Below, one piece after another: positions 3,617 to 27,100 of a DNA stretch of 64,000 nt. The position numbers and the translations under genes were made by a program. The stretch comes from a virus. The notes beneath the pieces are model-generated. The model was given only the letters and a program-made list of their open reading frames with translations, was not told where the DNA came from and made no database searches. The stretch lies in the IMG/VR virus record IMGVR_UViG_3300042463_000207, positions 1 through 64,000 of that record; one strand, written 5' to 3'. Within the stretch, counting starts at the first letter, position 1; the number at the start of each line of letters is the position of its first letter.

Positions 3617-3617
3617 A

Positions 3618-4805: not shown

Positions 4806-4841
4806 GATCCTGAAAGGGAAACAATAATACACAAAAGAGAG

Positions 4842-4874: not shown

Positions 4875-4885
4875 AACTTTGAAAT

Positions 4886-5272
4886 ATGAAAGAACAACTT
4901 AAAGCAGTGGAGACATTCCACAATGCATTTGGACAAGAGAATGGTAAATATCCGAGACCTTTAAATGAACATGAATTTAACCTTAGACACTCTCTTATGC
5001 AAGAAGAGAATGATGAATACCTAGAAGCTTGCTTTAAGAATTCATTAGTAGAAATTGCAGATGCATTGGGTGATCAATTATATATCCTCTGCGGAACTAT
5101 TCTTAAACATGGTATGCAACATGTTATAGAAGATGTATTTAATGAGATACAAGCAAGTAACATGAGTAAGTTAGGAGATGATGGCAAACCTGTTCTCCGT
5201 GAAGATGGTAAGATCTTAAAGGGACCTGGATACTTTAGACCCAATCTATCTAAATTTATAGAAGTAAAATGA
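4886..5272 (+). CDS. MazG-like NTP pyrophosphohydrolase
   Basis: A 128-aa all-alpha NTP pyrophosphatase of the MazG/phosphoribosyl-ATP pyrophosphohydrolase superfamily. The diagnostic metal-binding pattern ExxE...ExxD is present as E41-N-D-E44 and E56-I-A-D59, followed by an ALGDQLYILCG helix with a further Asp at 63. The enzyme class splits (d)NTPs to NMP and pyrophosphate in the cytoplasm. In phages it is thought to shape nucleotide pools or remove modified nucleotides, and in other systems it lowers the alarmone response. The exact substrate is not readable from sequence. The gene begins 11 bases after a strong terminator, so it must have its own promoter or rely on read-through. Its stop overlaps the next start as ATGA, which couples it to the thioesterase gene. 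Confidence 0.85.
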   Translation: MKEQLKAVETFHNAFGQENGKYPRPLNEHEFNLRHSLMQEENDEYLEACFKNSLVEIADALGDQLYILCGTILKHGMQHVIEDVFNEIQASNMSKLGDDGKPVLREDGKILKGPGYFRPNLSKFIEVK

Positions 5273-9000: not shown

Positions 9001-9449
9001 TGATCTATTGCAGCCTTACCTGACTGCTGGTTGATGGACTTTACAAATGATTTGAACTGTTTCTCTGCAACGGTAGCTTTATCATAAACGTCATCCACAA
9101 AGAGCATAATAGATTGTACACCTTGTACATCACGGACTTGTTCTACTAGTCTTTTGATTTCATTCTTAGTTCTTTCATAGTTCTGAACTTTTTTTCTCTG
9201 TAGTACAGCAAGCTTAGCTTCTAAGTTTAGAATTACATCATTTACTAGATCTTCAATAGGTGTTGTAGCCTTGTCAGCTTCAGTAACTTTATCTTCTTCT
9301 TCTGCCTCCGGATAATAGTTGAGATCATCACGGTCACCAAAACCTTCTCTATACCATTCTTGTTCAGCCAGTGCTTCATTACCATTGTTCTTGATTACAA
9401 GGTCCTTCCACTCCTGGCTGTTTTTATTTATGCACTTCTTAATTGACAT
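6081..9449 (-). CDS. Large virion protein next to the RNA polymerase, 1122 aa
   Basis: A mostly helical protein of 1122 aa. Residues 60-110 and 225-275 are charged, coiled-coil-like segments. Near the C-terminus one hydrophobic helix (AEATLILALTALVMVLRGM, about residues 984-1002) is followed by an acidic DDDDDE patch, and could cross or insert into a membrane. It is the last gene of the minus-strand virion block, three bases after the 4902-aa polymerase gene (TAA-ATC-ATG), so the two are made together. In crAss-like phages the genes beside the virion RNA polymerase encode large packaged proteins. A role as a co-packaged or membrane-inserting ejection protein fits but is inferred from context and the one hydrophobic helix. 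I see no enzymatic motif. Confidence 0.75.
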   Translation of the reverse strand: MSIKKCINKNSQEWKDLVIKNNGNEALAEQEWYREGFGDRDDLNYYPEAEEEDKVTEADKATTPIEDLVNDVILNLEAKLAVLQRKKVQNYERTKNEIKRLVEQVRDVQGVQSIMLFVDDVYDKATVAEKQFKSFVKSINQQSGKAAIDQLIAFYDFANRYELLDEISKEDVFEHFTSDLSPEEQEAAGIKSPQQKLTYAISVRNQIKQQVSQYGIPLIADWLMTYKSEAREGLGEEVKSLEADIARVEANTRISDEVREKELTKLRDRLSKVKGFNLTKESLVRYLREISGDMSGFEYLTGAMISAADPVLSIFAKAVKTEMDNARIKNIQLEQEAAKVFEEYVSAVGGNRDNPAELNRGLYETIRIPQRDAVGRVIRIAGEIQYEDRVSYVQKYDMSKYFAERQNLPQAFVLSDNPSPPELDAYRIRQAARRDWFKENTQPKSASEIQQILNGKQRELNARIITQDEYDNWYSSVAYTDPATGQLVYMGELTEPSNKFLNKAWLELYDLNGKPKNAKGKYHKWLTDTYLSYQEGLPEAQQPGYLLPSIYKTNGERMIDNPRRGVKTRLQEQFTFMEGDTQFGPATIAGTKEKFIPVYYTWSIKPEDVSLNLMRSTLMFAGMSNNFKALNDIHSEVVLYKKIVGERDVAETNVKGDPLLNPLAKRLGIERYITKEGESYSAKRVNDFIDMIIYGEMDTRQSVLGLSANKLTGSLIGFAALTSIAADIMKGVANNLQGNIQVLIEAASSEFFSIKNLMRGKSYYMKSIPGFLGDFGKFTADSLGGKLFDLYDPMQGDYMDNFGRLVTASVANKLFRVDTLFFNQHFGEHEIQVSNLFALLDATTVIDNESNQEMSLLDAYEKYGVEEIYNKTDFTDGKRQNVMNRLHALNKRMHGIYNDFDKATAQRYSLGKLAFMYRKYLVPAYKRRFKNLGYDEELGAPTEGYYKTFWNLYLKNLVTLKTSLIKNWADMSPFEKAQTKRVIAEATLILALTALVMVLRGMADDDDDELKKNWAYNFVLYQAIRMRSETSQYVPIYGIRDAYRTVKSPSAATTTIDRAIKFTDQFFIQSLDPEKAVYQRRTGVWEKGDNKSWAYFLRLMGITGYTMSPEEAIKAFEGSLSR

Positions 9450-9452
9450 GAT

Positions 9453-12400
9453 TTAGCAAGTATATTTTCTAATTATTTCTTCAATCCTTTCAACTTCACT
9501 CATAGTAGTAGCATTCTTGATGTCTTCCATTAACTGGAATATATTATACCCATCTTCTGCCATTGCAAGATCTAGACTCATTAGGTTTATCATTTCTTTG
9601 ATATCTCTAATTGACTGCTTCTTTCTTTCTTCTGTTACAGGTACAACTACTTCAGGAACTCTCTCAACTTTTCCAGTTCTGAGATCCATGTTTCTAAGAT
9701 ACATAGTTTTTCCATCAGGACTGACAAGATCATACAGATTGTTATCATTTAGTAAGTATCTTCTACCATTAGATGAATTGAATTCTTTAGGGAAAACACC
9801 ATTATTCTCCTCTAAATATGTATTGAATTCAGTAATTTCTGGATTTGCTTCAGGTGAAATAGAACCTTCAGAAACACTTCTAACACTATTTACCGGCTCT
9901 ACTTGGTAGACCTGTCTAGCCTGACCTTTATTTATGAAGCTAGCACTAAGGAGATTGTTCTTCTTAAAATCAGCAGCACTCTTAAATCCTTCTGATTTAG
10001 CAAATTGATCTAGAGTTCTATTTGTTTTAGAACCGGTCTCCTTATTTGTAATAGTAACAATATCTGTTTTGTTATTTACTGTAGCCTCACCAAGGTACTT
10101 AACTTTTACAATAGCACCATTGTCCATAGTATAGAACTCAGAATCTGTAGATAGAGCATTAATTCTATTAGTCATGGTCTTAGTACCATTCATAATCTTC
10201 TTAATATCTGACTCTGCAAGTGTAAGCCTAGGATATGTGTTCTCTTTTTTCTGTTGTGCACTAAAGTCTAGTCCAAATAGTAATGGTTGATTGAAATTAT
10301 AGTTTGTTAAATCAACTAAATAACCTCCAGTACTTCCTTTTAGACCATCAATTTTTGGTTGATACTGGAGTGATACACCCGGTACTTTACTTAACATAGT
10401 GTAAATAGCACCAACAGAAATTGGTGAACCTTGTGTTAATTGAACTTGTCTTTTTATTATATCATCATTAGTCTGCGGATTCTTTTTGGCTTCAGTTAGT
10501 GCTTTTAGAGCAAAGTCCATTTCATCTTGTGGAATTGGATCACCAGTTACACGATCTTTTTCTACAACAATATTGTAGTCATTCATCTTTAAAGTAAGTT
10601 GCTCATCATATGCTAGTTTATATTTGATCATGTCAACTTCTTCTCTTGAGTACTTAACCTCTTCAGGACCAGCATAGATTTGTGCTGTTCTTGGATTTGC
10701 TTGGGTTAACATAGTTGCATCAGAACCAGTAAAGAATAGAGGAGTCTCCTTACCATATTGTTTAATGTGTGTCTGGAGTACTTGATGAATTAGTGGCATG
10801 AAATACTGTAACTCAACATTTAAAAGTTTTTCAAGATCTGTTTTAGCAGCTTCAATAGCTTCAGTTTGATTTTCACTTAGTTCAGTTGCTCTTTTTATTA
10901 GCTCTTCTGAGTCAGCTTTTAAACTATCAAGGCGCCATGCCCCATAATTACTATCATAATCTTGTGCCATTCTCTCATTAAGAGCTATTGCAGATGCTTC
11001 ATCTCTTAGTCTTACAAGTTCATTATAGTTATAGTTAATATTATTTACTAATACATTGTACTCATCTCTTGTAAGCTTAAGCATTCTCTCAACAAAGTAT
11101 GCTTTATTTCTATTTGCAATATTAGATAGTACAAATTGCTTCTTGTTTGCAATATCTTTGTTAAGTGAATTAGTAATAGCATTTGGTAGTACAACTTTTA
11201 AGAAGTAGTTAACAGAAGTATTAAGCTGGGTTCTATTTGTTCTTGGTTGATATTGTGGTTTAATAACACCACCATATTGTTGGGAGAACATTGTATCAAA
11301 AGCTGCGCGGTCAAAAGCAGGGAACTTCTTTTGTATTTTTGAGAACATATCTTTATAGACTTGTTCTGGAAACTGAAAGCTTTGTCTATTATTACCAGTA
11401 GTTCTATTAGCATCTTCTATGGCTTTCTTTATCATCTGTTTATCATCTTCTGATAGGAACTGTTCAAAACCACCAGTAGATCTAATGCTATTTACTATTC
11501 TAGTTTGAGTATATAGACCATCAAGCAGTTCTTGTTGACGTCTTATAATGTCAGTATACTGAGATGGTTGTTCTAAGTAGACCTGATCATGCTGATAGAG
11601 ATCTCTAAACTGCTTATAACTAAAATCATCATCTTTTAATCTATTATCAATTACTCTTTGATAGACAGGAGATTTGAATATATTTAGATATTTAGGATCA
11701 TTAGATAATATTTCAAACCCACCTGTTGCTACTTGAGCCTCAGCATCTTTCATGACATCTGTCATTTCATCTACATATTTTTGTAGTGGATTTGATAATG
11801 TTTTAAGTCTTGATGTACCTTCTCTCAGTGTTTCAATCTGGTCATTTTGGATTTCATGTAATAATACAGCTACCCTTCCAGATTTATCTTGTGGGAATGC
11901 AGTTAAACTTGCAAATGCTGAAGGTGCAAGACTAAAGTGTGGAGCTCTCTTATAATATGTATCATTAAATCTTAGAGATATTTTTTGGTGGAGTACTGGG
12001 TCACCAGATGGTAACCGTGTATCTTCAAAGGTATTGTATACCATATAGTCCAAGTGATCTAGCTCATTAGCAAAGCCTAGCATGTAATTTGTTTCTAGGA
12101 AAACATATGCTTCATTAACAAATTCTTCTGCAGTGATGGACTTTTTATTAGGGTTTTCTGCCTTAATAGCTTCAATTACATTTTGTAGTAATGCCAGTTC
12201 TTCCTTCTTTACACCATCTACTTTTAGTTTTTCAGAAAGTGAAATTGGATTCTTCTTGTACTTGGTTAGTATCTGGGGAATTGCTTTTAGTGTAGGTGTA
12301 ATTGTTTGATAATCTCTTGCAGTTTCTAGATCTTTTCTTTCTTCTGGAGTTAGTTTCTTTGTTAAGCTTAAACTGCTACCAGTTGCAAACCTACTCTCTA

Positions 12401-15400
12401 CATTTTGTAAGTACATTGGAATAGTAGGCATTCCTTTATCATAGATACTATATAGTTTATTAAGGGTCTTTCTTAGATACCTTGTTTTTCTTTTATATGT
12501 TTTATTGAGAAGTCTATCTACAAACTTTTTCTGATCTTCTATCTGTTGGATTACTTGTTTAGAATCTTGAGCATAATTAGTATTAGCATATACCCAGCTA
12601 TCAAGTTCTTCTATTGTAGAGAACAGTGGTGAGTCTGCTACAGCAAAGAGGTTGTTACCTTCCTCATCTGTTGTGATCAACAAGTTATCTTGGAAGTATG
12701 CGTAGTCAACAGGATCTATAGAAGCTTCAGTTATTGCTGTATCAGGGAATGCTTGATTACTCAGCTCAAGATATTCTTCCCACGTCATTAGATCAGATAG
12801 ATCTGAGCTTAAGATCTTAATAGCAGCAACTTCAAATATATCTTCTTTGGTTTCATTTTGTTTATAGATACCAAGTACTCTCTTGATAAAGTTAATAAAC
12901 CTAGTAAAGAAAGACTTATCCTCCGGAGTGCTCTCTCTAGTTTCTACTCTCTTGATTGCAGCAGCAATTAACTGACCAATAGACTCCTCGGTAAGATCTT
13001 CTGGACTACTAACTAGATTACCATATTGGGTTCTGTATAGTTCATTATTCTTAACTGATGTTTCATGAGCATCCCATAGAGCCTTCTTAAGTGGACTATC
13101 AGCTTTTAACAATCTGTACCAGAAGTGAGCTGCCTCTTCAGGAAGTTTGTTCCATGCAAGAGGTCTCTTTTCAAATTGGTCTATGATGTCTACTGTACCC
13201 TGCATGAAATTGGCTACAGCAAGTGCATTATCTACAACAGAACCATTAGCAGATAGAATTTCTGGAACAAGTCTCTGCTCAATACCAACAGCATCAAGGA
13301 AATTAGATACTTGATTAAGTGTACCTGTTTGGAACTCAAGGTTTTGTTGGTTAGATATATCCAGACCAAACAGTTCATCACTAGCAGTACTATTGATATT
13401 GGAGAATCTAGACTTGAAGCTACTTTCACTTGATATATCAACTCCTGATATGTTTCTAAACTTCCAGCCCTTAGGTGCAAGAACAATTGTAGGTAAGCCT
13501 AATCTTATTCCAGCTTTTGCACCAGCTTCATCAAAACCAGTCTGACCACCACTTCTTACAGACTCAATCTTGTTATTTAGTCTAGGTGATTCTGTAACAG
13601 CTTTTAGAAGTCCGTATGTGAAATTGTCTATTTGAGCTTGAGTATATTTACCCCTCATTGTATAGATACCATTTCCAGCAATGTTCAGAGTTTTTGCATT
13701 GACAGAATTCAACATATCTACTATCCTATTTACTCTCTCAGCTGTAACTTCTATAGAACTAGCATCAATAGGAATGTACATTTTATTTTGAGCTAGCACA
13801 GAAGACTTAGTCAACTTTTCTCCAGCACTATTAAAATCAGTAGCTAGTGCTATAGTAGCATCAGCAGATGCATTTATTCTAGTTCTTGCAGCATAACCAG
13901 TATTTTGATCTTCTTGGAAGTCAATCTGATTTATAGGTGTAACAGGTTGAGTTTGTTGACCAACTGTACTTACAATTTCTTCTGGATCAAATGATGGCTC
14001 AATAACAGTTCTTACATTAGAAGGATTGTTAATTTGTACTGGAGTAAGTAAATAGTTCTTAAATAACTTACGGTTGTTCTCAATAGATACCAGCTTATCA
14101 AATATTAGATTAAGAGTATCTTGAGTCCAGTAGTTTAGTTTAAATAAATCTCCAGCATTTCTAGTGGCTGCAATAACAGTTTCTTGTGGTACTACTAGCT
14201 CTAATCCAAATGGAGTAGTTCCATTACCATGTTGATACACTGCTATTTTTGGAAGAAGACTGAAGATAGCACTAATTCTATTATTAGCATCTCCTCTAAC
14301 TTTCTGAATTCTTGGGTTACCAAGTGCTCTGATATTAGCAGCATACTGACTCTTAGTACTACCATCTACTACATCTCTGTCATTTAGAGTTAGAAGATAA
14401 CTATCTCTAGAAGCTCTAGCTGATAGTTGTTCTAATACAGGGTACTCAGATCTAAGACCAGGAAACTCATCAACAAGATCAAGTACCATTTTGGTATATG
14501 AGTATTCAGTATTTTTAGTAAGAGCACTTGGATTGTATACAGTCATTAGAGATACTTGGTTTAGTTGTAAACCAGTTAGACCCTGAGTCTTTTGGTATGC
14601 TCTTTCTAAAACGTATCTAATATACTGCTCTTCTGTAGTAAATGGATCTTCTGTAATATTAAATGGTTTTAGACCATCTCTATTTTTGTAAGCTGTGCCA
14701 GCCTCTGAATTAGCTAGATAAGCTTTTTCTCTGTAGTCTCTCTTGATGTTATCAAGGTTTATGATGAACCCTTTATCTGTATAGATAGCATCATTATCTA
14801 ATGCTTTATTGTTAGTAACATTTGCATCACGATAAGTTTCTGGTACAGAAATAATATTACCCCTTGCATCTACAAAATTTGATAAGTAGTTCTGGTATAT
14901 AAAGTTTACTATAGCATCTTTATAAGCATCAATGAAAGCTACAACACCATCTGTCCCAATACCAAAAGATGATATATCTCTGGTAGCAATAATTTCTTTA
15001 ATAGCATTATTGGTAATACTGTTGTTAATGAGATCCATCATTGGAGCAGCAACATCAGTGATGATGCTCTTATCAAAGAGTGAGCTTACAATACTTTGCT
15101 TGAATAGCCTTTCCTTAGTTACTTGATCAATCTTACTATTCTCATCTAAGAGATCTCTGTTTACATCATCTAGATATACCTGTTGGAAGTTACTATAGGT
15201 TTTTGTATCTGGTTTTAGAAGTCTCTTCATTGCAGATAGACCCATGAGTTGTTTTTGGATCTCATAGAAGTGTAAAAACATACCCATCTGAGCTATAATC
15301 TGCTCATTGTTGAGATCATTTACATTCTTTTTACCTTCAATGATATCCTGCATCATGTCTACTGAGAAGTTACCATCTACTCTTTCAGCTTTCTTTATAG

Positions 15401-18400
15401 CAAAATCAGCTGCATTATAGTATAATTGGTTTCTTAGATCTGGTGCAAAATAGATATCAGCTTTTGATGGTCCACCTTTTTCCGGATATATTCTCATTAT
15501 TTCAAGAGGATTAATATTTCCTCTCTGGATTTCTAGTGCAAGTTGTCTCTTCTTAACCTTAGTCATCACTGGTTTTGGCTGCTCTCTAAAGTCATCCACT
15601 GGTCTGAACTCAACATTGAATTCAATATCAGGTCTCACACCATCCATGATAGCATATAAATATCTTGCAGTATATTTATTTACTACATCTCTAGCAGATT
15701 GAAACTTAGTGAACTGTGATGCACTTGGTGCTATTCCTAAAATTGCACCATAGTCACCACCAATAAGTCTTTGCTGTTCTGCAAATTCACGGATCATTGG
15801 TTGTGATACAAAGTATGCTGCATCTCTTACAGGTACACCAGCTTTAATTAAGTATAGAAATGTTGGAGCAATCTCATAGTTACCTTGGATATAGAAGATC
15901 CACTCGTCTTTTTCTACATCTACCCAACCATTCATACCTTGAGAATATACATCAGCAATCTTATCAATACCATCAGCGGTATCAGTATCTGATATAGAAA
16001 TGTGATCTCCAATTTTATTGTGACGGAGATTCAGTCTCATATTGTATTCAGCAGGGTTCTTAGTATCTACAACATATCTACCATTTACATATTTGGTAGC
16101 TTTATACGTCAGTGGCATTTTACCACCAGCAGCATCAAACATTGGACTTAGTTTGTTTTCAATAGCTGCAATACCAAGTACTGCTTTACCAACTAAATTC
16201 TCCTCATGTTTGGCTAAATTGTATAGTGGCTCTAATGTAGTAGTAGGGCTAAGTATCTTTTTGTTACCCTTCATGTTAATCTCACCATTTTGTTTGGTGA
16301 ACTTATCATAAGTACTAACATCATCCTGCAGTTTATCAGCAAGATCTTTTAGTATATAGGTATCATTAGGTCTAACTAGTGGAGCATAGTTTTCAGGTAG
16401 CTCAAGGATAGATCTAATACTATCAATAAATTGATTTTGTGTAGCAAACTTCTGTTGTTCAATAAACTTCTTTCTAGCTTTCTTATCCTTAATCTTATTT
16501 GCTTCTGCCATGAAGTCTTTATTACTAGCAGGAGCTTTATATAGATTACCATTCTTATCAATGTTAGGGAAGAATGTGGTAAGTTTATCAACGTCAAAGT
16601 CACCACCAGACTTAGCAACAATCTCTGTTGGTAGCATGATTAGGTTACCTGCTGCTGGATCTAAGAACTCATATACTTCCATGAACTCCATAGAGTTGAG
16701 ACCCTGTACAGGAATACGTACAGCAGCCATAGTGATCTTCTTTCTGTTATCTTCAGTATCTAACCACTTTTCATTCTTGATCATCTCATTGAGTCTTTGT
16801 CTAGTCTCAATAGGTTTACCATCAATGTGTTTTAGATTCAGTAAGTTTTCAAAGTCACCCTGTAAAGCAATAGCAACTTTCATTGCATTGGTTTTACCAT
16901 CCTCACCAGGGTGGTAGAATGGAAGGTTATTAGTTCCTAGAAACTTCTTTCTCTCAGCATCAGTTGGTTTTTCAAATCTTGGTCCACCTGTAATTAGACC
17001 ATTACTGAATGTGCTGGCTACTTGTACAAGAGGTTCACCTTTGACATACTGTCTTACAAATCTTTTTTCTACAATAGATAGAATAGTTTTTTCAATAGTT
17101 TTTCTATCTATAAAGTATGATAGGTCACCCTTAAGTGTCCCATCACTATTTGTTTGTAGTTGTCTGAGTAAGTGATCTGGATAGTCTTTTCTTTCTAAGT
17201 TCTCTCTGATTAGTTTTAAGAACTTATCAGGTTTACCTACAAGCTTGTTACCGTCTTTATTATACTCAATCTCATTTAGTAGTTCATACTTAAGGAGATC
17301 AGTATAGAAGTCTACAGTCTCCTTATACTCATTTACAATTGGTGCATAATCTTTATTAACCAGCTGACCTTGTTGATATAAACCACTAGTAATTAGGGCT
17401 CTCAACTGTGTAGAGAATACAGTCTCACCCTTGTACTTACTATTTACAGAAGCAGCTTCTTTTAGAAATCCTGCATGTATTGTATTTACTGTAAACTTGA
17501 TATTCTTTTTAACAATAGTTTGAGCAGCATCTTCAAATACTATATCGGCTTTACTACCAGTAGGTGCAACATGACCTACTTTAGAACCAGACTCAAATGT
17601 AGCATAATGTACATTTTCCGTCATCATCTGTTTGTGAAGTGACTCAAAATCAGTTCCCTTAATCATACTTGGAATTAGAGGCATAAGTGCAAACTTGTGC
17701 ATTGCAGTTACAGGGAGTACTGTGCCTTCAACAAAACCAAAGTTCTGTAATTTATAAACCGGGAACATCTCAATAATCTCAGATGCTTTTACATCTTCTT
17801 TATTTACAATTCTCTGGTATAGATTTTCTTGTGGGTCAGACCATTTATTCTGTAATACCTTAAGCATTCTATATGCATCAAAGGTAATGTATCCTTGACC
17901 ATCTGCTTCTTTAAGTTCGTCAGCAGAATATTTAGCTACTTCCTTTTCAACACGTTCTTTAATAAGAGCTTCTTTATTTGGAATGTTTCTGTTCTTATAT
18001 CTTCTTTCATAATCAGCAGTAAGACCCTTACGGATTACATCAGCATAAATACTCTCTCTCTGTACTTCCTGCATAATAGCAGTATTAACATAACCCTTAT
18101 ACATAATAGGAGCCATGTTCTCACTTGCTGCATATGAAGTTTCTCCAAGATACTGACTGAATGTTTGTGCATCTAAATCACTTCTAACTCTAGGTCCATT
18201 TGATATGAGACCTGAAATTCTCTTATGTAGTTCTTGTTTCTTATGGTCATACTGAGCAATGTCACCCAAGAATAGGATACTGGTCTCCATATTATGGATC
18301 CAGTAGTTGTACATGAAAGCTTTTACTAATGTTTTTTCTCTTTGCTCATTGGTTAGATTATCAAACTTTAATCTATCCATGAGTGTTTTGTCAACAAATG

Positions 18401-21400
18401 GAGCTTGTTTTAAATAGTTATAGAGCTCATTTGTCTTGTTAGTAAAGTATCCCTTGATCTCAGCCTTTATCTTCTTTGCTAGTTCAGGATCTGTTTTAAG
18501 ATAGTCTTGTAATTTAACTCCAGGACTCTTAACCTTTTCTAGGATTTCATTTTGAGTATTTTCAGTTAGTATACCATCAAAGTAGACAAATGATTCACCA
18601 AAGGTTTTACCATTTTTAAACTCTCTGTTATAGCCGACATAGTTTTTAGCTTCAGGACTCTCATTGTAAATGTTAATTCTCTTGAGCTCAGAAGATAAAT
18701 ATGGAATCATAATGGTCTCTATAGTATCAGCTTCACCGGCTGTATTTGGTAGAAGAGACTCAATATCAACATAGAGATGTGCATCTTTTTTATTTATAGC
18801 ACTTGTAGCTATACCACCATCTATCTTCCAACCAAAAGATGAGTTCTTGGATCCAGGGCGCATTAGTTCTACTCTACCAGTCTTTAAGAACGTGTGCATC
18901 TCTTGGATGAACTTACCTCTCTTATCTAAAGATGTAGTATTTGAACCTGTGATAGCACCATCTCTAATAGAACCATTTTGACCAATTATAGTATTAATTG
19001 TTTGAGTACCAGAAATTGTCTCAACCATAACAGATCTATTAGGTCTCTTTGTATTATCTGGTAAGAACATTGATCTTATTGCAAGTGATGACTCTGCAAA
19101 TGGGTTTATAGAAGGATCAAGATGCTTTGCAGTTGAACCAAAACGGTACATATCAGTTCTACCATTAGCGGTATTTATAGCATCAGCAATAACTGTTAGT
19201 GAACTATCATTAACATGTTCATTAACCCTATTCTTTTCAGGGTTCTGTACTGAGAATGTAGAAGCAGTTGAACCAAATTTATTCTGTAGAGTTACAATTC
19301 TATCAATCTGGGTACTTTGTTTAGATCCTTTTTTAAATACAAAACTATCTTTCAGACCTATTACTCCAGGATCTATACCGTTCCTGAGTGCAGTAATTGG
19401 ATTCCTCATAAAATTATTAAGAATCCTTCTTGCTCCATCAGACATTGATCCAGCTTTCTGAGCATTATTTAGATCTTTAATTGTATCAAATATGTAACTA
19501 ACACCAAAATACTTGGCATTATTGGGATCAGATAGTTCTTGTTTGATCTTACCAAGGTCATCTAAGTTGAAGCCCATAGCATTTAAGAACAAGAACTCAC
19601 TGCCTGTTTTGAAGTTACCAGACCTATCTGAAAACTGTTCAATGATTTTATCAAGTTTTAGAATAGTATTGTTGTCAGCATCTCTTCTAGTAAATGCACT
19701 ATCTAGTCTTGCTGCAAAACTAGCCTCAAACTTACGGATGGTATTACTAATATCAGTAGATGCATTAGTTACTTCTACTCCACTTGTTTCAGATCTAGTT
19801 ATCTTTTTGTTTCCTTTATTATCAATCTCTTCATACTGATTTCTAAACACAGTAAGTTGCATGTATGGCACACGTGGTAAACTAAACACAGACCAGAAGG
19901 ATGTAACAATCCCAAATGATCTCATCTTGTTACCTATTGTACCCTCTGCACCAATTGATTCTGGATTCGGAAGTCTAAACTTAATAAGTTGTTCTAGTTC
20001 AGGATATGTAGCAATAGCATCTTGAATGTTCTTGTACATCTGTCTAGGATCCTTAGTACTATTTGTTGCTCTTACAACAGCATTCCAGACCTTTTTGTAA
20101 TTTGCAAGTTTCTTGTAACCAAGTTTATTGTACTCATAGATTGGTTTTCCTCTAGAGTCTCTTGTGACTGCAAACAAACTTTTTAGAATATAGACTACTT
20201 CTTTATCTACAATCTCTAGTAAATTTACATCAGCACCCTTATCAAATTTCTGGGACTTAGTTGCATCTAGTTGAGCATCTTCATCTTGAGTATCATTTTC
20301 TGGATCAGTTTCTTGAATCCTTACTTTTTTGGTCATTATATTAAATGAAGACTTCTCTTCAAAGTATTTAATAACCTTATCCCAGTTGTCTCTTGCCGCT
20401 TGTAAAACTCTTAGATTGTCTAAGAGAGCAGCCTGATCATAGTCAACTTCAAAAGCACCTACTGTTCTATCTGGAAAGAGCTCAATATCTGTAAAAGAAG
20501 TATCATCATCTTTTTCATATGCATCAAATTGGGCTTGAGCTTCTTCTAATGAATTTACAACAATGATGTCAACTGCATCTTTGTCTTTGGACTTAATAGT
20601 CTTATGACTATAGTAGTCACCTATAATCTCAATAGTACCTTTGTATAGTTCACCTTTAATTCTTTCACCACTCTTGGTATCTAAATTAAGATTACTAAAG
20701 TCTTCAACCTGACCTTTTAAGAAGATGTACTTATCATCTCCCTCTTTACTCCTAATAATAGCAACAGCATTATCTTCAAGGTTCTGAAGTGTTTCAAATG
20801 AGTTAAAAGATTTAGCTGGCTTTACATTAAGTTGACCTTGTATGTTTTCAATATCTTTTAGAAATCTCTTTCTTGCAAAATCAAAGAACTGGCTCTTATT
20901 ATTCTCATTACTAATAATAGATATTGCTGCATCTAGAGCTCCCTTTTTCTCAAATGTATTGTCAACAACTGTTGATAGAAGTGAGTCTAGTGATTCAATA
21001 ACAAGAGCAGAGTCAATCTCATCAAGAGCATCTTCTTGATTATTGTTGACTTGTTCTATACCACGGTTTAGCTCATCAAGTGCAACATTAGTAATTAATG
21101 GTGTATAGTTGTTGAGCAGTGCTGGATTCTTAGATGCAAAGTATAAGTTTTGGAATAGCTCACCTGCAACACCTTCTGTTGCAAGTTCTTCACCCCTAAT
21201 TAAATCAGCTGTAGAAGGTGTAATTCTAAATAACTTTTTGAGGAAGTTAAGTATTCTTCTAAAGAGTGTATTTCTTTTTGGTTGACCCTTAATTACTTTT
21301 GGATTAAGTGCATAAGATCTAAAATCTTCAGCTAACATTTCTTCTACTTCTCTTGCAGAGAGATTAGCATATTCAGGTTTTAGTTTTCTTACTTCATTAT

Positions 21401-24161
21401 ATAATGCAGTCTTCTCTTCTTTTGTTAGGAACAACTGAGAGAATACGTGCCATGCCTCATGATATGCATCTACCATTGTGCCGCCTGTGGTTGGATTGAT
21501 TAAGATAGCACCCATTTTACCGTCAAGGTCAAGGTTCATATCAGTAATTAATCTTGCACCAGCTGCAACAAACTTACCGTATACATTAGAGTTTACAATG
21601 TTAGCTGCAGGGAATAGTCTAATGTATTTACTAAGTGGAGAGTTTTTCCACCACTTGATTGCATTTTCTACTTGTGCTGCAGTTACACCATTTGGTAGAC
21701 TAGCTGATCTGTCTAGTTCAAAATTATCAATTAGATCACTTATATCTGTTGAATCCTCAGGTTGATTAGTATATGGTGGATTAGTAATATTTACATCACC
21801 AGCTTTAGCCTGATCCTCTGTTACAGTTTTGCTAAATGGTTCTACTGATTCTACAGCTTCATCTTCAGCTGCTCTCTCTGCAGTTACAGTTTGAACAGGA
21901 ATAGGTTCTCTTATAGGTTCATCAGCCTTAAAATCTCTTTCAGCAAGAGATCCCATATCATAGATTCTACCTTCTACTTCAGCATATGCTTTTACAACAT
22001 CTTTGAATAGGAACCCATTATCAATTACATCCCTGACTTCAAGATAGATCTTATCACCGACTTTTGCTTTACTACTTAGATAAAACTTATGTACTCCTTC
22101 TTGACCATCTATTTTTACATCTAGTGTATAAGTTGACCCATCTTTAGTTTGTGTTTCTCTAACTTCTACTACTTCTCCAGTAATACTTTTTGGATCAGCA
22201 AATAAAATTGCTTCAACCATCTTGTCTTTAAACTTACGGACTTCAGATCTATTATCTACTTCTTCAGATTGATCATTTGTAATTTCACCTAGTACTCCAG
22301 TTGGTAGACCAAATTTAACATAGGCATTAAATAATGGAACACCTTTTTTACCTAATATTATTTCTCCATCTTGTTGTCTCAGGAAGTCTATATAGTTTTT
22401 CTCTACACGCTCCCCATCTACATAGTCCATATATGTACCCTTACTTAATAAGGGCTGACTGTAATCAAACTTGGCTGCATAGTATTTTCCTGACTCAGAG
22501 GTCTTACCATTCATGAGAATTTCAAAGATCTTCTTCTTATTACTTTCTTTAAGATTCTTATCTTCTAGATTGAGTGTTGTGGATGGATTGACTTTTGAGT
22601 CACTTAATTCAACCTGTTTTCCTGTAAAAGCAAAGTACTTAAATGTAATCACATTAGTATCCCTATCAAAGTATACCTGATGTCTTCTAGTTGAATTGGG
22701 AATGTCTACTATCTCCTTTGCATAGAACTGACTATACCAGTCAAACTTTTGTGTAGGAGTTAGTTCATCTGAAGTTAGTACTTCAGCAATCTTGGTAGCT
22801 AAATCTGATTTGATATCAGATCTATCTAGTTGTACTATTGTACCATTGCCCAACTTTATGATAGTCTCACCACTACCAAAACCATAAGAGGGTTTATCTA
22901 GAGTTTGTATGTTACCAATAATTAGTTCACTAAGTGTTTTCCCATTAGATTCTCTTGCATAGAATGACTCAAGCTGATTTATCTTTAGGTTCTTGATACT
23001 AGTATTAGATACACCCTCACTAGCTCCAGTAATAGGTAGAATGAACTTCTCACCCTTAATTAACTTTTGTCTTAGATCATATAGCTGTTTAGCCTCTGCT
23101 TGTTGTTCTGCTTCAATTTCTGCAGCAAATTGCTGTATGGTCTTACCAGTTTTTGCTTTGAATTCAACGGGGGTTGAGTACCCCATTTCTTTCATGCGTA
23201 GTCTAGCTTCTTCTGCTGGTAAGATGATTTTATTTTCTATACCATACATATTGGTAACTACAAACTTACCACTACTATCTCGTCTTACTTCTCTAAGAGT
23301 CTGATAAGCATACTTACCATTTTCTTTTGTAGTAATATTACCATCCTCATCAAAGTAAAGTGGTTTGCCTTGTTTATCTGAGATAACAAGCATGAACACC
23401 TCACTTGGTAGGGTTACTTTTCCTGTACCCGTACCCTGGGCCTCAATAGAATTCATTCTAATTAGAAGATCAGATGTTTCTTTTGTCATCTGAGCATCTG
23501 GCATTCTATTTAATGCAATTGGAACAAGAGTAATTTCTTGTCCCTGGTATATAGGATTACCTAGAGTTGTATCAAACTGAAAAGTAGTTCTATGTATTCT
23601 AGAGATTGTATTGTAAATTCTTGTCTTATCTCTGTCAAGTCTTTCTACAGTAGTTTGTGTTTTCTTTGTTGGATCTAGAGTTATGAATTCCTGACCTGTT
23701 CCAGAAAAAATTGTTCTACTTTTTAGTTCAATCTCTTCAATCTCAGCATCCGGATCAATTGGATCTGATGTAGTTCCTACAGGATTGTTTGCTTTATAAT
23801 TAGCCTCTGCAGCTAGCTCCTCAGGAGTAAGTGGTGCTAAACCTAAATACTTTTCAATAGCAGATAAACCTGTATCAACATTTCTAAAAGCTCTTGTAAT
23901 TTGTCTTAGTTCTTCAATGGGCATATTCAAACTAAGTTCACCACCTAGTTGTGCTTCTACACTACCTATGATATATGGTATTTGTTGAATATACTGTAGT
24001 GCTACATCACTACCCTGGGCCTTTTTAAAACCATTGTACATATAATTTATGTACTGATTTACATCAAAAGTTTCTCCAGCAGGAGTAGTAAGCATCTTTT
24101 TATAGACAGCATCTAAAAGTTTGATAATATTATCACGACCAAGGGTACAAGTAATTGCCAT
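9453..24161 (-). CDS. Giant virion RNA polymerase / polyvalent protein, 4902 aa
   Basis: The largest gene here, 14.7 kb. Residues 2521-2525 read DFDVD within a GGDFDVDKL block, the DxDxD catalytic loop of the crAss-like virion RNA polymerase (compare gp66 of phage phi14:2), which transcribes early genes after injection. Other domains are visible. A zinc-peptidase motif HEAWH lies at 901-905, with a possible third ligand in EEMLAEDF about 50 residues later. SGGQTG at 3537-3542, followed by KAGIRLGLPTIV and APKGW, marks a SLOG/putative molybdenum-carrier-type nucleotide-binding domain. A GRVAVLLHEIQND block (EIQND at 4103-4107) resembles domains of large phage polyvalent proteins. An ASCH-like stretch (MNGTKTMTNR) lies near 4650-4760. 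The gene starts three bases after the 2235-aa gene (TAA-TCA-ATG). Polymerase identity is firm; the accessory domains are by motif only. The ends of the mature subunits are unknown, and it may be processed. Confidence 0.9.
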   Translation of the reverse strand: MAITCTLGRDNIIKLLDAVYKKMLTTPAGETFDVNQYINYMYNGFKKAQGSDVALQYIQQIPYIIGSVEAQLGGELSLNMPIEELRQITRAFRNVDTGLSAIEKYLGLAPLTPEELAAEANYKANNPVGTTSDPIDPDAEIEEIELKSRTIFSGTGQEFITLDPTKKTQTTVERLDRDKTRIYNTISRIHRTTFQFDTTLGNPIYQGQEITLVPIALNRMPDAQMTKETSDLLIRMNSIEAQGTGTGKVTLPSEVFMLVISDKQGKPLYFDEDGNITTKENGKYAYQTLREVRRDSSGKFVVTNMYGIENKIILPAEEARLRMKEMGYSTPVEFKAKTGKTIQQFAAEIEAEQQAEAKQLYDLRQKLIKGEKFILPITGASEGVSNTSIKNLKINQLESFYARESNGKTLSELIIGNIQTLDKPSYGFGSGETIIKLGNGTIVQLDRSDIKSDLATKIAEVLTSDELTPTQKFDWYSQFYAKEIVDIPNSTRRHQVYFDRDTNVITFKYFAFTGKQVELSDSKVNPSTTLNLEDKNLKESNKKKIFEILMNGKTSESGKYYAAKFDYSQPLLSKGTYMDYVDGERVEKNYIDFLRQQDGEIILGKKGVPLFNAYVKFGLPTGVLGEITNDQSEEVDNRSEVRKFKDKMVEAILFADPKSITGEVVEVRETQTKDGSTYTLDVKIDGQEGVHKFYLSSKAKVGDKIYLEVRDVIDNGFLFKDVVKAYAEVEGRIYDMGSLAERDFKADEPIREPIPVQTVTAERAAEDEAVESVEPFSKTVTEDQAKAGDVNITNPPYTNQPEDSTDISDLIDNFELDRSASLPNGVTAAQVENAIKWWKNSPLSKYIRLFPAANIVNSNVYGKFVAAGARLITDMNLDLDGKMGAILINPTTGGTMVDAYHEAWHVFSQLFLTKEEKTALYNEVRKLKPEYANLSAREVEEMLAEDFRSYALNPKVIKGQPKRNTLFRRILNFLKKLFRITPSTADLIRGEELATEGVAGELFQNLYFASKNPALLNNYTPLITNVALDELNRGIEQVNNNQEDALDEIDSALVIESLDSLLSTVVDNTFEKKGALDAAISIISNENNKSQFFDFARKRFLKDIENIQGQLNVKPAKSFNSFETLQNLEDNAVAIIRSKEGDDKYIFLKGQVEDFSNLNLDTKSGERIKGELYKGTIEIIGDYYSHKTIKSKDKDAVDIIVVNSLEEAQAQFDAYEKDDDTSFTDIELFPDRTVGAFEVDYDQAALLDNLRVLQAARDNWDKVIKYFEEKSSFNIMTKKVRIQETDPENDTQDEDAQLDATKSQKFDKGADVNLLEIVDKEVVYILKSLFAVTRDSRGKPIYEYNKLGYKKLANYKKVWNAVVRATNSTKDPRQMYKNIQDAIATYPELEQLIKFRLPNPESIGAEGTIGNKMRSFGIVTSFWSVFSLPRVPYMQLTVFRNQYEEIDNKGNKKITRSETSGVEVTNASTDISNTIRKFEASFAARLDSAFTRRDADNNTILKLDKIIEQFSDRSGNFKTGSEFLFLNAMGFNLDDLGKIKQELSDPNNAKYFGVSYIFDTIKDLNNAQKAGSMSDGARRILNNFMRNPITALRNGIDPGVIGLKDSFVFKKGSKQSTQIDRIVTLQNKFGSTASTFSVQNPEKNRVNEHVNDSSLTVIADAINTANGRTDMYRFGSTAKHLDPSINPFAESSLAIRSMFLPDNTKRPNRSVMVETISGTQTINTIIGQNGSIRDGAITGSNTTSLDKRGKFIQEMHTFLKTGRVELMRPGSKNSSFGWKIDGGIATSAINKKDAHLYVDIESLLPNTAGEADTIETIMIPYLSSELKRINIYNESPEAKNYVGYNREFKNGKTFGESFVYFDGILTENTQNEILEKVKSPGVKLQDYLKTDPELAKKIKAEIKGYFTNKTNELYNYLKQAPFVDKTLMDRLKFDNLTNEQREKTLVKAFMYNYWIHNMETSILFLGDIAQYDHKKQELHKRISGLISNGPRVRSDLDAQTFSQYLGETSYAASENMAPIMYKGYVNTAIMQEVQRESIYADVIRKGLTADYERRYKNRNIPNKEALIKERVEKEVAKYSADELKEADGQGYITFDAYRMLKVLQNKWSDPQENLYQRIVNKEDVKASEIIEMFPVYKLQNFGFVEGTVLPVTAMHKFALMPLIPSMIKGTDFESLHKQMMTENVHYATFESGSKVGHVAPTGSKADIVFEDAAQTIVKKNIKFTVNTIHAGFLKEAASVNSKYKGETVFSTQLRALITSGLYQQGQLVNKDYAPIVNEYKETVDFYTDLLKYELLNEIEYNKDGNKLVGKPDKFLKLIRENLERKDYPDHLLRQLQTNSDGTLKGDLSYFIDRKTIEKTILSIVEKRFVRQYVKGEPLVQVASTFSNGLITGGPRFEKPTDAERKKFLGTNNLPFYHPGEDGKTNAMKVAIALQGDFENLLNLKHIDGKPIETRQRLNEMIKNEKWLDTEDNRKKITMAAVRIPVQGLNSMEFMEVYEFLDPAAGNLIMLPTEIVAKSGGDFDVDKLTTFFPNIDKNGNLYKAPASNKDFMAEANKIKDKKARKKFIEQQKFATQNQFIDSIRSILELPENYAPLVRPNDTYILKDLADKLQDDVSTYDKFTKQNGEINMKGNKKILSPTTTLEPLYNLAKHEENLVGKAVLGIAAIENKLSPMFDAAGGKMPLTYKATKYVNGRYVVDTKNPAEYNMRLNLRHNKIGDHISISDTDTADGIDKIADVYSQGMNGWVDVEKDEWIFYIQGNYEIAPTFLYLIKAGVPVRDAAYFVSQPMIREFAEQQRLIGGDYGAILGIAPSASQFTKFQSARDVVNKYTARYLYAIMDGVRPDIEFNVEFRPVDDFREQPKPVMTKVKKRQLALEIQRGNINPLEIMRIYPEKGGPSKADIYFAPDLRNQLYYNAADFAIKKAERVDGNFSVDMMQDIIEGKKNVNDLNNEQIIAQMGMFLHFYEIQKQLMGLSAMKRLLKPDTKTYSNFQQVYLDDVNRDLLDENSKIDQVTKERLFKQSIVSSLFDKSIITDVAAPMMDLINNSITNNAIKEIIATRDISSFGIGTDGVVAFIDAYKDAIVNFIYQNYLSNFVDARGNIISVPETYRDANVTNNKALDNDAIYTDKGFIINLDNIKRDYREKAYLANSEAGTAYKNRDGLKPFNITEDPFTTEEQYIRYVLERAYQKTQGLTGLQLNQVSLMTVYNPSALTKNTEYSYTKMVLDLVDEFPGLRSEYPVLEQLSARASRDSYLLTLNDRDVVDGSTKSQYAANIRALGNPRIQKVRGDANNRISAIFSLLPKIAVYQHGNGTTPFGLELVVPQETVIAATRNAGDLFKLNYWTQDTLNLIFDKLVSIENNRKLFKNYLLTPVQINNPSNVRTVIEPSFDPEEIVSTVGQQTQPVTPINQIDFQEDQNTGYAARTRINASADATIALATDFNSAGEKLTKSSVLAQNKMYIPIDASSIEVTAERVNRIVDMLNSVNAKTLNIAGNGIYTMRGKYTQAQIDNFTYGLLKAVTESPRLNNKIESVRSGGQTGFDEAGAKAGIRLGLPTIVLAPKGWKFRNISGVDISSESSFKSRFSNINSTASDELFGLDISNQQNLEFQTGTLNQVSNFLDAVGIEQRLVPEILSANGSVVDNALAVANFMQGTVDIIDQFEKRPLAWNKLPEEAAHFWYRLLKADSPLKKALWDAHETSVKNNELYRTQYGNLVSSPEDLTEESIGQLIAAAIKRVETRESTPEDKSFFTRFINFIKRVLGIYKQNETKEDIFEVAAIKILSSDLSDLMTWEEYLELSNQAFPDTAITEASIDPVDYAYFQDNLLITTDEEGNNLFAVADSPLFSTIEELDSWVYANTNYAQDSKQVIQQIEDQKKFVDRLLNKTYKRKTRYLRKTLNKLYSIYDKGMPTIPMYLQNVESRFATGSSLSLTKKLTPEERKDLETARDYQTITPTLKAIPQILTKYKKNPISLSEKLKVDGVKKEELALLQNVIEAIKAENPNKKSITAEEFVNEAYVFLETNYMLGFANELDHLDYMVYNTFEDTRLPSGDPVLHQKISLRFNDTYYKRAPHFSLAPSAFASLTAFPQDKSGRVAVLLHEIQNDQIETLREGTSRLKTLSNPLQKYVDEMTDVMKDAEAQVATGGFEILSNDPKYLNIFKSPVYQRVIDNRLKDDDFSYKQFRDLYQHDQVYLEQPSQYTDIIRRQQELLDGLYTQTRIVNSIRSTGGFEQFLSEDDKQMIKKAIEDANRTTGNNRQSFQFPEQVYKDMFSKIQKKFPAFDRAAFDTMFSQQYGGVIKPQYQPRTNRTQLNTSVNYFLKVVLPNAITNSLNKDIANKKQFVLSNIANRNKAYFVERMLKLTRDEYNVLVNNINYNYNELVRLRDEASAIALNERMAQDYDSNYGAWRLDSLKADSEELIKRATELSENQTEAIEAAKTDLEKLLNVELQYFMPLIHQVLQTHIKQYGKETPLFFTGSDATMLTQANPRTAQIYAGPEEVKYSREEVDMIKYKLAYDEQLTLKMNDYNIVVEKDRVTGDPIPQDEMDFALKALTEAKKNPQTNDDIIKRQVQLTQGSPISVGAIYTMLSKVPGVSLQYQPKIDGLKGSTGGYLVDLTNYNFNQPLLFGLDFSAQQKKENTYPRLTLAESDIKKIMNGTKTMTNRINALSTDSEFYTMDNGAIVKVKYLGEATVNNKTDIVTITNKETGSKTNRTLDQFAKSEGFKSAADFKKNNLLSASFINKGQARQVYQVEPVNSVRSVSEGSISPEANPEITEFNTYLEENNGVFPKEFNSSNGRRYLLNDNNLYDLVSPDGKTMYLRNMDLRTGKVERVPEVVVPVTEERKKQSIRDIKEMINLMSLDLAMAEDGYNIFQLMEDIKNATTMSEVERIEEIIRKYTC

Positions 24162-24164
24162 TGA

Positions 24165-27100
24165 TTAACAAGGTTTTGAGTTAAATGCATCAGTTTCTAA
24201 GTCCTCAAGCTTAGCATCTTTGATTCTATCTTCAACATTATTTATTTCTGTTTTGATAACCTCCTGCGTTAGATCAGAACTTTCTTTTAGTACTGCTTTA
24301 GTATCATCAGTTTGTTTTACCACTGGTGCTTGGGGTTTGATTGCTGTGCTCATTTCTGTTTGAGAAGTTAATTGATTGAAAGTAATAAAGATACTGCTTT
24401 TGCCATTGATTCTGCTAACATTTATTCCTTTATCTGTAATAGATGTAATAGTAATTGGGTCACCCGGAAGTGCCCAGAACCTACCATTATTGTCTGTCAT
24501 GGGTTGTGTCACAACTCTATTAGCATATTGTTCTTTTGGAATACCGTTCTTTATAATATACTCAATTTCTGCTTTAGGTAATAAATTAATTGTAGAATCA
24601 CTATAACCCATTAGGTTTAACTGATTTCTAAGATCTTTTTGTATACTAGTTACAACTTTGATTCCTGTAGCAGCTTGTGGACTACTTTGTACTTGTTGTG
24701 AAGTAGATTGTTGTTCAATAAGAACTGCAGTAGCACCAACAGCATCCTGCGGAGTAATCTCTACACCAGATAGTACATCAATAGTTCTTGTACTATTTCC
24801 CCCTGCATCATAGTCTAATGCAATTGGTAATACAGCAAGTGTTCTAGCTTTAAGACCATGAGTATTATTTAGTAGGATTCTATATAATGATAACTGTTCT
24901 GTATGCTGTTCACGTTTAGATTTACCAAACCTCTTAGATTCATATTTAACTAGGTTCTCACCTTCATATGTTTCAGCAAACTGATTACCTCTCATTGTTT
25001 TGATGTCATAGATTCTTACATCACCATTTCTATCAAAGGTTAATAAATCTACAGTACCTGCAATACCAAGTTCATCATTGTATAGTACAACATTATTAGC
25101 TAAAACTATTTCTCCTCTTGCATCAAGAGAAGCTTTAATAGTCTCTAGTCTGGCTTTAAGTTTTTCTATTTCTTCAACTGGAGCAAATGTATACTTACTA
25201 GTATCTTTTAGTTTACCAGCAAAGAAGTCTCTAATATAATCATCAATAGCATTGCCAAGAGTAGTAGAACTTGCAAGTAATAGTTTATTATTAATGTCTT
25301 TATCACTATAACCTAGATCTTTAAGTCTTCTTGTATAGTCTTCCATAGACTCAGTTTCCAACTTAGGATCTTTGATCTCATCTTCTTTAGTGTAACTGGT
25401 AACCCGCATATACTCTTTACCAGTTCTGGTATTAATATACTTGGTACCATCTTCAGTCAGTTTAATGAAGGATGCATTTTTAAGAACTTCTCTGATAGTA
25501 CTTCTTACAGAATCAAGTTTTTGTTCTTGTGCTGTAAGTGGTCTACCTGCTTTTTCACTTAGTGCTTGATCTAGATCAGCAATGTCAGCAAGGGAGAATG
25601 TAGAAATAATAGTTTTTTCTTCTTCATCTTCAAATACCTGTTCAACAGTTTGTGCCCTTACTTCAGTAGGAACTGGACTCTGAACGTCTCCGCTACTAAT
25701 TGGTTCTCTAATAATATCTCCAGCAACCGGTTCAAGTAGATCATATAGATATCTAAGTTGATCTTGATACTTCTGTAGAGCTGCTTCTAGCTCCATCATT
25801 CTATTTGTCTCTTGTTCTCTAACCTCATCAATGAACTCTACATCATCCATAGCTTGATTTATTTCTCTTTCAAGTCTCTGGAGTTCAGCTTTATTTTGTG
25901 CATACTCATCAAGTCTAGGATCATTTGTTCCTCTCAACTGAGTTAGTGTGTAATCTGAAAGTTCTTTATATCCTGAGTTCTTAAACTTACTTAAAGCTTT
26001 ATCATGTGTTTGCCAGATTTTTAAGTATTCTCTAAGATATTCTAAAGAACTAGCAATAGCTTTTCTTAGAATATCAATAAGTCTCTGGATTGTACCCATC
26101 TTCTTCTCAATCTTCTTGATCTTATTGCGGATATCAGTTTTAGTAAATAGATCAAAGTTAGGATCAGCAAGTAGATTTCTATAGTAGTCAGCTTGTTTTT
26201 TAAGATCCTTTTTAATTGGAATAAGAATTTTTTCTATCTCTGCTTTATAGATATTTATTTGATTCTGAATTTCATTTGCTACTGCAAATTCTCTTCTAAC
26301 CTGACCCTTATAAGCATTAATTCTTTCTCTTATTTTAGCAGCAAGTTTCTTTTGACTATTAGATTTTATTAATTGGAAGTTAGTCTTTTCCAGTTGTGTA
26401 ATTTTATTTAGTATATCTTCAATTTGTACACCACTTAGTTCTACAGTATTGTCAAGAAGTTGTTGTAGGTAGTCAAGAGTGTCTCTAATCTCAGCCTCTT
26501 CTTTTTCAATTAGTGCTCTCTTTTCTTCAACAAGGGCTATTCTTCTTTGAAGTGCTTGCTCTGCTAATTGTTTACGTTTTGCAGTTTCAGCAGCAAGTTG
26601 TTCTGCATCAGAAGAAAATTCTTTCTCGGCAACCTCAGCTTGTTCACCATAAGCTTCTACATCAGCAATGTATCTTCTTAGACGTGCGATGTTGAGCTCA
26701 TCTATAAGTAGATCTTCTTTCTCTTCATCAGTTAGTTCTTTCTGTGATCTAATAGCATACTGTGATTCTAGATCTGCAAGAATTTCTTTAGCTTGTTCTA
26801 GAGTGTACATAGCCATATCCATCTCCTTGCCATTGTAGTCAATGATAGGTGGTATAATACTTATAGCCTGTTCTTCAAGCTTTCTGGCCTGCATTTCTTT
26901 ATTGTAGTTCTCAATAACTTCTTTGGCTTTTGGATTTGTTCTAACAAACTCTTCAAATTTATCAAGGAGTTCCTCTTCAGTTAGTCTAGAATAAACATCT
27001 ATTAATGGTTCCCCATTCTCATCTTTGTTAATATAGTTTCCATCCTTATCTTGTTCTGCCACAAAGTCATTAAACTCAACTTGTAGATCTGTATATAAAC

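Follow-up and report, generated by a model that had tools for sequence, protein, structure and literature searches.

Sequence analysis of a 4902-residue crassvirus RNA polymerase with an exchangeable cassette slot and cysteines at the chain ends

Crassviruses are abundant in the human gut. Their RNA polymerases reach giant size, up to ~6000 aa (PMC10136315), and fusions of these enzymes with large proteins of unknown function are already known (PMC10770324), as are polyvalent proteins, including polymerases of the N4 type (PMC5512222). How polymerases wider than the tail channel enter the cell is an open question for both crAss001 (PMC10172136) and N4 (PMC12633501). The locus examined here encodes a polymerase of 4902 aa (P0001; Table 1) and raises the questions of which accessory domains are joined to it, whether the chain is cut by a protease of its own and how it is delivered. 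It lies in a window of 64,000 nucleotides, the whole stretch of DNA that was analyzed, which derives from a 67,036-base virus contig in IMG/VR. An earlier note on this DNA had described a multi-domain polyvalent protein; the exchangeability of the accessory part and the cysteine pattern reported below were both absent from it.

The polymerase core and its accessory domains

The uninterrupted single frame of 4902 aa is real, and it runs on the minus strand, which the earlier note had left unstated. A tail ring protein encoded at 53882-54544 matches the crAss001 ring protein gp40 (7qog_C, E 1.4e-7) and, in a small comparison set, the partner proteins P0002 and P0003 match crAss001 gp47 (300 aa, E 3e-19) and gp49 (E 3e-60), respectively. 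Because of these matches, the source virus is, by homology, a crassvirus. A PDB search with P0001 as a single sequence gave no match below E 0.77. A five-row profile of residues 1800-2850 found the phi14:2 RNAP (6vr4_A; E 3.6e-19), its one other match being a chain with a chance-level E of 0.13, and homology to phi14:2 gp66 was also detected by tblastn (E 3e-7). No T7-like single-subunit polymerase chain (N4 type) was among the core-profile PDB matches, an absence that is no proof. The DFDVD loop had been placed correctly at residue 2521 and is the sole DxDxD in P0001; a DxDxD catalytic loop is found in all 21 aligned sequences, the window included, one of which reads DFDGD. The profile comparison confirmed P0001 as a homologue of the crassvirus virion-type RNA polymerases, in agreement with the earlier identification, and packaging of P0001 in the virion would follow by analogy with phi14:2 and crAss001. 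Two unusual polymerase genes were encountered among the retrieved loci. A 6381-aa frame without internal stop in L038/L058 (record G001:C1:33395-52540) holds two polymerase cores (HMM E 0 and 2.9e-48; loops DFDGD and DFDID), between which lies an ART-like stretch, and the polymerase gene of cr108_1 (L012:11590-23180) is split at the catalytic loop by a ~290-base gap that resembles an intron site.

The proposed zinc-peptidase motif, HEAWH, stands at residue 901 and is conserved without exception in the 18 sequences aligned; the identity of the region as a zincin is supported by sequence only. HEAWH is the sole HExxH in P0001, a pattern present in 18 of 1000 shuffled sequences of the same composition, and H901, E902 and H905 are accompanied by the downstream glutamates E940, E941 and E945, all of them invariant in the same 18 sequences, window included. 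A structure model of residues 1-1200 (mean pLDDT 65, usable in parts) yielded no zincin among its fold matches, the listing being filled by another domain at residues 637-741. Foldseek found nothing at E 0.001 or better with this model, the toxin chains in its listing having a probability of 0.08 or less, and VIA-align gave weak small-barrel matches only, the best at Z 5.3. Since these searches returned only such matches at residues 637-741, no fold is claimed for the zincin-like region.

The SLOG domain was confirmed by Pfam cpYpsA (38.7 bits; cut-off 26.2) and PHROG 10774 (E 5.8e-28), although the residue number given earlier for its motif (3537) was off by one, GGQTGFD being at 3538. The same domain is 58% identical in the relative L035, where it precedes the zincin rather than following the core, and 43% identical in Bcn2_81, where it is N-terminal too. 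The EIQND motif had been assigned correctly to residue 4103. It belongs to a module of ~1050 aa with no Pfam match over the cut-off and no PHROG match, which occurs in seven further contigs besides one carrying the window's own gene. The module is 36-38% identical behind a far more distant polymerase (L045, L046, L049; core 24-27% identical), and the polymerase of L057 is followed by it as well; 98 pattern matches in bacterial genome contigs included no relative. A structure model of residues 3595-4790 (six rows) had a mean pLDDT of 47.5, too low for use. The EEAAH motif at residue 3675 was considered as a degenerate copy of the zincin and rejected, as the profile-profile probability was 29% and the alignment lay only downstream of the motif. 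In L054 and L055, the EIQND module is part of a frame, its start cut by the contig end, that extends a further ~1300 aa and includes an HEVGH region resembling SprT (Pfam E 0.0026, under the cut-off).

The ASCH-like stretch suggested for the C-terminal region was not borne out: five of ten aligned C-terminal parts match ASCH weakly (best 15.6 bits against a cut-off of 21.2), and that of the window does not match. DUF669 was likewise rejected, with L023 barely over the cut-off (21.3 versus 21.0 bits), L024 and L025 under it and no match in the window. A PDB search with a profile of this region gave no match at E 10. The C-terminal HMM blocks contained a misaligned L038 row, and the resulting "Cterm" matches of L038 were excluded. 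Collectively, the occurrence of a polymerase core, a significant SLOG domain and a zincin motif in one chain agrees with the multi-domain architecture described earlier, and the sequence comparisons support P0001 as a crass-type polymerase fused to accessory domains in a polyvalent arrangement.

Table 1. Features of the polymerase locus and their positions in the window
Feature	Position	Strand	Basis
P0001, 4902-aa crassvirus virion-type RNA polymerase with accessory cassette	9453..24161	-	Open reading frame, core profile, relatives
Cys5, first of two cysteines in P0001	24147..24149	-	Residue count
Putative small beta-barrel/OB-like domain, residues 637-741	21939..22253	-	Model; weak, best Z 5.3
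Zincin-like region, residues 780-1010 (HEAWH 901-905)	21132..21824	-	Motif and conservation
Polymerase core, residues 1800-2810	15732..18764	-	Alignment, core profile, DFDVD
DFDVD loop, residues 2521-2525	16587-16601	-	Motif position
Conserved post-core region, residues 2811-3396	13974..15731	-	Alignment with relatives
Exchangeable cassette, residues 3397-4640	10242..13973	-	Comparison with relatives
cpYpsA SLOG domain, residues 3412-3578	13428..13928	-	Pfam, PHROG
EIQND module, ~1050 aa, residues 3595-4640	10242..13379	-	Relatives; no Pfam match over cut-off, no PHROG match
EEAAH motif, residue 3675	13125-13139	-	Motif position
EIQND motif, residue 4103	11841-11855	-	Motif position
Conserved C-terminal region, residues 4643-4902	9456..10235	-	Alignment; ASCH-like below cut-off
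Cys4902, final residue of P0001	9456..9458	-	Residue count
P0002, 2235 aa, upstream partner, exonuclease-like region 1810-2015	24165..30872	-	gp47 similarity over ~300 aa
P0003, 1122 aa, downstream partner	6081..9449	-	Homologue of crAss001 gp49 and phi14:2 g065

Cysteines at the ends of three cargo proteins

P0001 contains only two cysteines, C5 and C4902, where 63 would be expected in 4902 residues (Poisson P 7e-25; expectation from nine other window proteins, the Cys-rich 57478 and 60208 left out). The sole cysteine of P0002 is its final residue (24168-24170), and that of P0003 is residue 6 (9432-9434). Exactly two cysteines were counted in 18 of 20 polymerases, the exceptions being L041 with three and L033 with one, the start of which is probably mis-set; a cysteine lies at most four residues from the C-end in all 20 and within the first five residues in 19. 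Because the cysteines are confined to the chain ends, the exchanged cassettes described below are cysteine-free in these 20 polymerases. The partner proteins in loci besides the window follow suit, with a cysteine in the last nine residues of the upstream partner in 18 of 18 loci (read in the C-terminal part only, 184 to 1765 aa, and with the 55-aa piece of the L033 locus set aside) and in the first nine residues of the downstream partner in 19 of 19. In L030, L033, L034 and L042, the next gene is a short insertion (244 to 655 aa) with a cysteine at both ends, and the N-terminal-only cysteine predicted for the gene after it was found in 4/4 cases, one of them read only in part. Similar counts were obtained with the frames that carry the linker described below, a set overlapping the 20: a cysteine is in the last nine residues in 43 of 46 frames with a true C-end (three without) and in the first eight residues in 37 of 42 following frames (five without), and interior cysteines were seen in five of 41 frames open at the 5' end, eight in 57,830 residues. 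Many rows are related, and all counts given here on cassettes, linkers and cysteines are of non-independent events.

Named phages display the same arrangement. Phi14:2 gp66 (6VR4), with g065 and g067, resembles the window in its homologous core, partner order and terminal cysteines (g067, only C1797 of 1797; g066, C3 and C2179 of 2180; g065, only C3) and is packaged according to record notes citing MS/MS. Unlike P0001, gp66 has 2180 aa and no HExxH in the chain, and no comparable cassette was seen. CrAss001 has partners similar to those of the window and the same end-cysteine pattern (gp47, only C2339 of 2341; gp50, C5, C1334 and C2404 of 2412; gp49, only C5), although its gp47 is on the other strand and its gp50, of 2412 aa, has one extra interior cysteine. 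One further interior cysteine was found in Bcn2_81. In Bcn2, a near relative of crAss001, the zincin-like block is, in contrast to the window, in the gp47 homologue (Bcn2_78; L183:12676-19701) and absent from the polymerase chain, which amounts to a shift of the boundary between these partners.

Four polymerases (cr108_1, cr118_1, cr10_1 and cr56_1) have long extra sequence before the polymerase, and in these the N-terminal cysteine is absent. The extra sequence of cr108_1 is similar to g067 and gp47, and that of cr118_1 and cr10_1 resembles g067, gp47 or P0002 more weakly (E 1e-4 to 4e-4, and 3e-5 outside the zincin); for cr56_1, the similarity is confined to the zincin region, so that a fusion is suggested by its length. 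The remaining joint keeps its cysteines in cr108 (gp53, C797 of 798; gp52, C5), cr56 (gp39, three from the end; gp38, C6) and cr118 (gp14, three from the end; gp15, C3), and cr10 gp32 has a cysteine 10 from the end, its partner lying outside the retrieved stretch. With the exception of cr118 gp15, the chains of these four phages also contain interior cysteines, four to seven in the fused chains of the three Suoliviridae and two in cr108_1.

Studies of crAss001 showed that disulfides are present in its tail and portal vertex, that gp47, gp49 and gp50 are all detected in virions by MS, for which both reduced and untreated samples were run, and that the cargo must cross constrictions under 50 A partly unfolded (PMC10172136). 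The simplest reading of the cysteine positions is one disulfide per joint, coupling the cargo proteins, and it is from these positions that we infer the disulfides. The same data would also fit terminal cysteines that are not joints and instead bind metal, serve as an anchor to the portal or to some other protein of the virion, or close a ring within their own chain. This is possible, although we lean against it, as the upstream partner has its only cysteine at the C-end and the downstream partner at the N-end, inserted genes bring one at each end, and the N-end cysteine is missing in the four chains with extra sequence before the polymerase; ring closure would, moreover, require two cysteines per protein. 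The available portions of PMC10172136 and PMC12633501, the sole places searched for it, do not mention the cysteine rule, of which an earlier mention elsewhere is possible.

The cassette slot and the in-frame linker

Relatives of the gene were retrieved from IMG/VR, giving 21 distinct genes including that of the window, three of them partial in the retrieved DNA; L014 (the window's own phage) and L020 (truncated) were left out, and L001, L005, L008 and L009 of one scan are L015, L019, L022 and L021 of the other. The alignment with L001, L005 and L009 covers residues 1-3396 and about 4640-4902, and the intervening stretch is replaced. At the DNA level, identity to the closest relative is 86% until gene nucleotide 10186, and the next match starts at 14028. 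The downstream neighbor is 1122 aa long in the window and in L001, L005 and L009, regardless of the cassette, indicating that the variation is local. In a joint alignment, the longest non-core segment falls in the same slot in all 21 genes and ranges from 63 to ~2450 aa, with the reservation that L021, whose slot is the 63-aa one, has longer non-core segments elsewhere. By this comparison, residues ~3397-4640 are an exchangeable cassette.

The slot contents across the 21 genes include ART, kinase, SLOG, NADAR, AlkB, helicase, a second polymerase core or nothing recognized. By Pfam, the cassette of L019 contains an AAA_33 kinase and ART-PolyVal above the cut-off, and those of L015 (E 1.4e-4) and L038 contain ART-PolyVal below it; L022 has a helicase and an AlkB-like oxygenase, L034 AlkB-like, SLOG and NADAR domains, L040 AlkB-like, NADAR and helicase domains and L041 an AlkB-like domain. 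A helicase was found in L023, L024, L025, L026, L032 and L033, and no Pfam domain in the cassettes of L021, L030, L035, L036 and L042. On a core tree of 19 rows (the near twins L028 and L031 dropped from the tree and the pair comparison), these contents are scattered. The window, with SLOG and the EIQND module, is sister to L015 with ART, and a core identity of 93% links L030 (no domain), L033 (a helicase) and L040 (three domains); unrelated cassettes occur in phages with 91-93% identical cores. In contrast, a helicase is common to a group of five close relatives (L023 to L026 and L032). Among pairs of cassettes of at least 60 aa (which leaves out L021), 38 of 153 have any similarity at E 1e-5, and among pairs with a core identity of at least 60%, 14 of 28 are without cassette similarity, three of these 14 involving L021, whose 42-aa slot is too short for comparison.

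It has been considered whether the cassette domains aid the polymerase in its own transcription or DNA handling, with no counter-defense role and with swapping as neutral accretion. The many cassettes with Dda-like helicase or AlkB-like domains would suit such a role, and replacement of the whole content between close phages argues against it, so that we think it somewhat unlikely. We know of no role of NADAR, ART or SLOG domains in transcription. Proposed roles of these domains in viruses are given in PMC9503650. Mosaicism of phage proteins has been surveyed in PMC10684548, the available text of which contains neither "crass" nor "linker", and no prior mention of the cassette slot or linker was found in the literature searched, although an earlier one is possible.

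In many relatives, cassette modules of ~130-330 aa are separated by a near-identical in-frame linker of ~21 bp. In L040, a ~22-bp version of it stands between the modules, in seven copies. L053 and L056 are 98% identical over 2603 residues, after which a single extra domain (DUF7831, E 2e-8) follows in L053, bordered on each side by an 18-bp direct repeat of which L056 has one copy. The linker is absent from the window gene itself, so that its clade would need another route, perhaps recombination in the flanking arms. A search of IMG/VR started from the exact 20-mer gave 63 stretches, in which sites were allowed up to two mismatches; all 101 sites, in 63 frames, are in frame. Polymerase-gene HMMs match 40 of these frames, and 19 of the other 23 are open at the 5' end. 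In the 40 mapped frames, 54 linker peptides lie after the core, 11 before it and none inside, the final 25 residues of the last core match being counted as after; the chance of all 65 being outside is ~1e-21 under uniform placement, the rows being related. The median spacing is 160 aa over 38 intervals, and the frames form 45 groups at 90% identity. No exact match was found in bacterial genome contigs. In L085 (1516-2923) and L068, a second linker-bordered slot is situated upstream of the zincin, and the L085 stretch matched nothing in Pfam at E 0.01.

Near-identical peptides between modules raise the possibility of a polyprotein, in which the embedded zincin would cut at the linkers before or after injection and free the modules, TQ[PS]STSV being the cleavage site. 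The invariance of HExxH and the downstream glutamates in 18/18 sequences would favor this reading, and the same idea was put forward for polyvalent proteins by Iyer et al. 2017 (PMC5512222). However, the zincin motif and glutamates are retained even in genes with hardly any cassette and without linker (L021, L042), and the N4 polymerase, which has a metallopeptidase domain, is packaged unprocessed (PMC5512222). Conservation, moreover, extends to the codons. A codon-degenerate search, with serines limited to TCN and AGY and designed to separate conservation of the peptide from that of the DNA, found 104 loci with 111 sites. Of the sites in polymerase genes, 43/43 are in frame and 35 have the exact consensus codons, for which codon usage predicts about 6%; other frames contribute 68 sites, and the 13 exact ones among them are all in frame. 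In 16 loci that contain both elements, codon identity is 0.96 in the linker against 0.64 in the catalytic loop, many of these loci being from the exact search, which favors the linker. These codon comparisons indicate that the codons of the linker are conserved beyond its residues alone, and a polyprotein is in our view unlikely.

Exchange by homology in the linkers, the route proposed here, may be compared with a second mechanism, in which the linker is the target of a site-specific recombinase. A near-invariant unit of ~21-26 bp with up to seven repeats per gene would be suited to this, yet tyrosine and serine recombinase families were unmatched in 10/10 records (several of them fragments) and no inverted repeat is visible by eye, making such a target quite improbable. 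Finally, the cassette-bearing relatives are metagenome contigs, and chimeric assembly would be hardly credible as an explanation, given identical genes in separate contigs (L015 to L018; L022 and L029; L026, L027 and L037; L036 and L039) and a cysteine rule that also holds in named phages.

A model for delivery of the cargo

P0001 comprises a conserved polymerase frame with one cassette slot in a cysteine-depleted chain, and we consider it fairly probable that a three-protein disulfide train delivers the cassette enzymes. P0001 would be the central cargo protein of a crassvirus, in which a single in-frame slot separates the polymerase-bearing frame (residues 1-3396) from the C-terminal end. 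Its end-cysteines are complementary to the single end-cysteines of P0002 and P0003, and the three proteins would be packaged together, joined head to tail via disulfides from the C-end of P0002 to the N-end of P0001 and from the C-end of P0001 to the N-end of P0003. The joined chain may be extruded through the tail partly unfolded, and reduction in the host cytoplasm would separate its proteins. The core would then transcribe early genes in the host, and the enzymes of the cassette (SLOG in this phage, and ART, NADAR, AlkB, kinase or helicase in others) would act at once, possibly on NAD/ADP-ribose signals or damaged nucleic acid. Cassettes would be swapped by recombination in the linkers or in the flanking conserved arms. 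With slightly less than even confidence, we extend the model to crassvirus cargo as a train of giant proteins nearly without interior cysteine, coupled by one virion-formed disulfide per joint that is undone in the reducing cytoplasm, the middle carriage having a domain slot that is shuffled like gene cassettes and is often bordered by the ~21-bp linker.

Compared to known systems, P0001 exhibits both shared and distinct features. First, polyvalent proteins (PMC5512222) likewise combine unrelated enzyme domains with a metallopeptidase motif, and ART-PolyVal occurs in relatives of P0001; however, the RNAP type there is N4-like, "crass" is absent from the available text, and a fixed cassette slot, linker repeat and end-cysteines are not described in its sections 8, 18 and 34. 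Second, the P23-45 virion RNAP is a giant fused protein of 5002 aa but, unlike P0001, is fused to the tail tape measure (PMC10770324). Third, the N4 virion RNAP is giant and packaged, with HExxH and extra C-terminal domains (PMC12633501, PMC5512222), but is of the single-subunit polymerase type.

The end-cysteine rule provides a directly testable model of coupling and order from sequence alone, and the disulfide chain, if true, would represent a categorically new way of arranging delivery. Through the cassette slot, the arsenal that crassviruses package in advance for the first minute of infection would become readable from genomes, and the linkers represent naturally evolved in-frame module linkers.

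Several other large proteins are encoded in the window. Two near the cargo genes, of 1006 and 1530 aa (30862-33882 and 36250-40842), have no cysteine. A 2102-aa protein at 40901-47209 has a C-terminal amidase/endolysin-like region and two HExxH motifs, and a 629-aa protein at 57478-59367, unlike the cysteine-poor cargo, contains 52 cysteines (8%).
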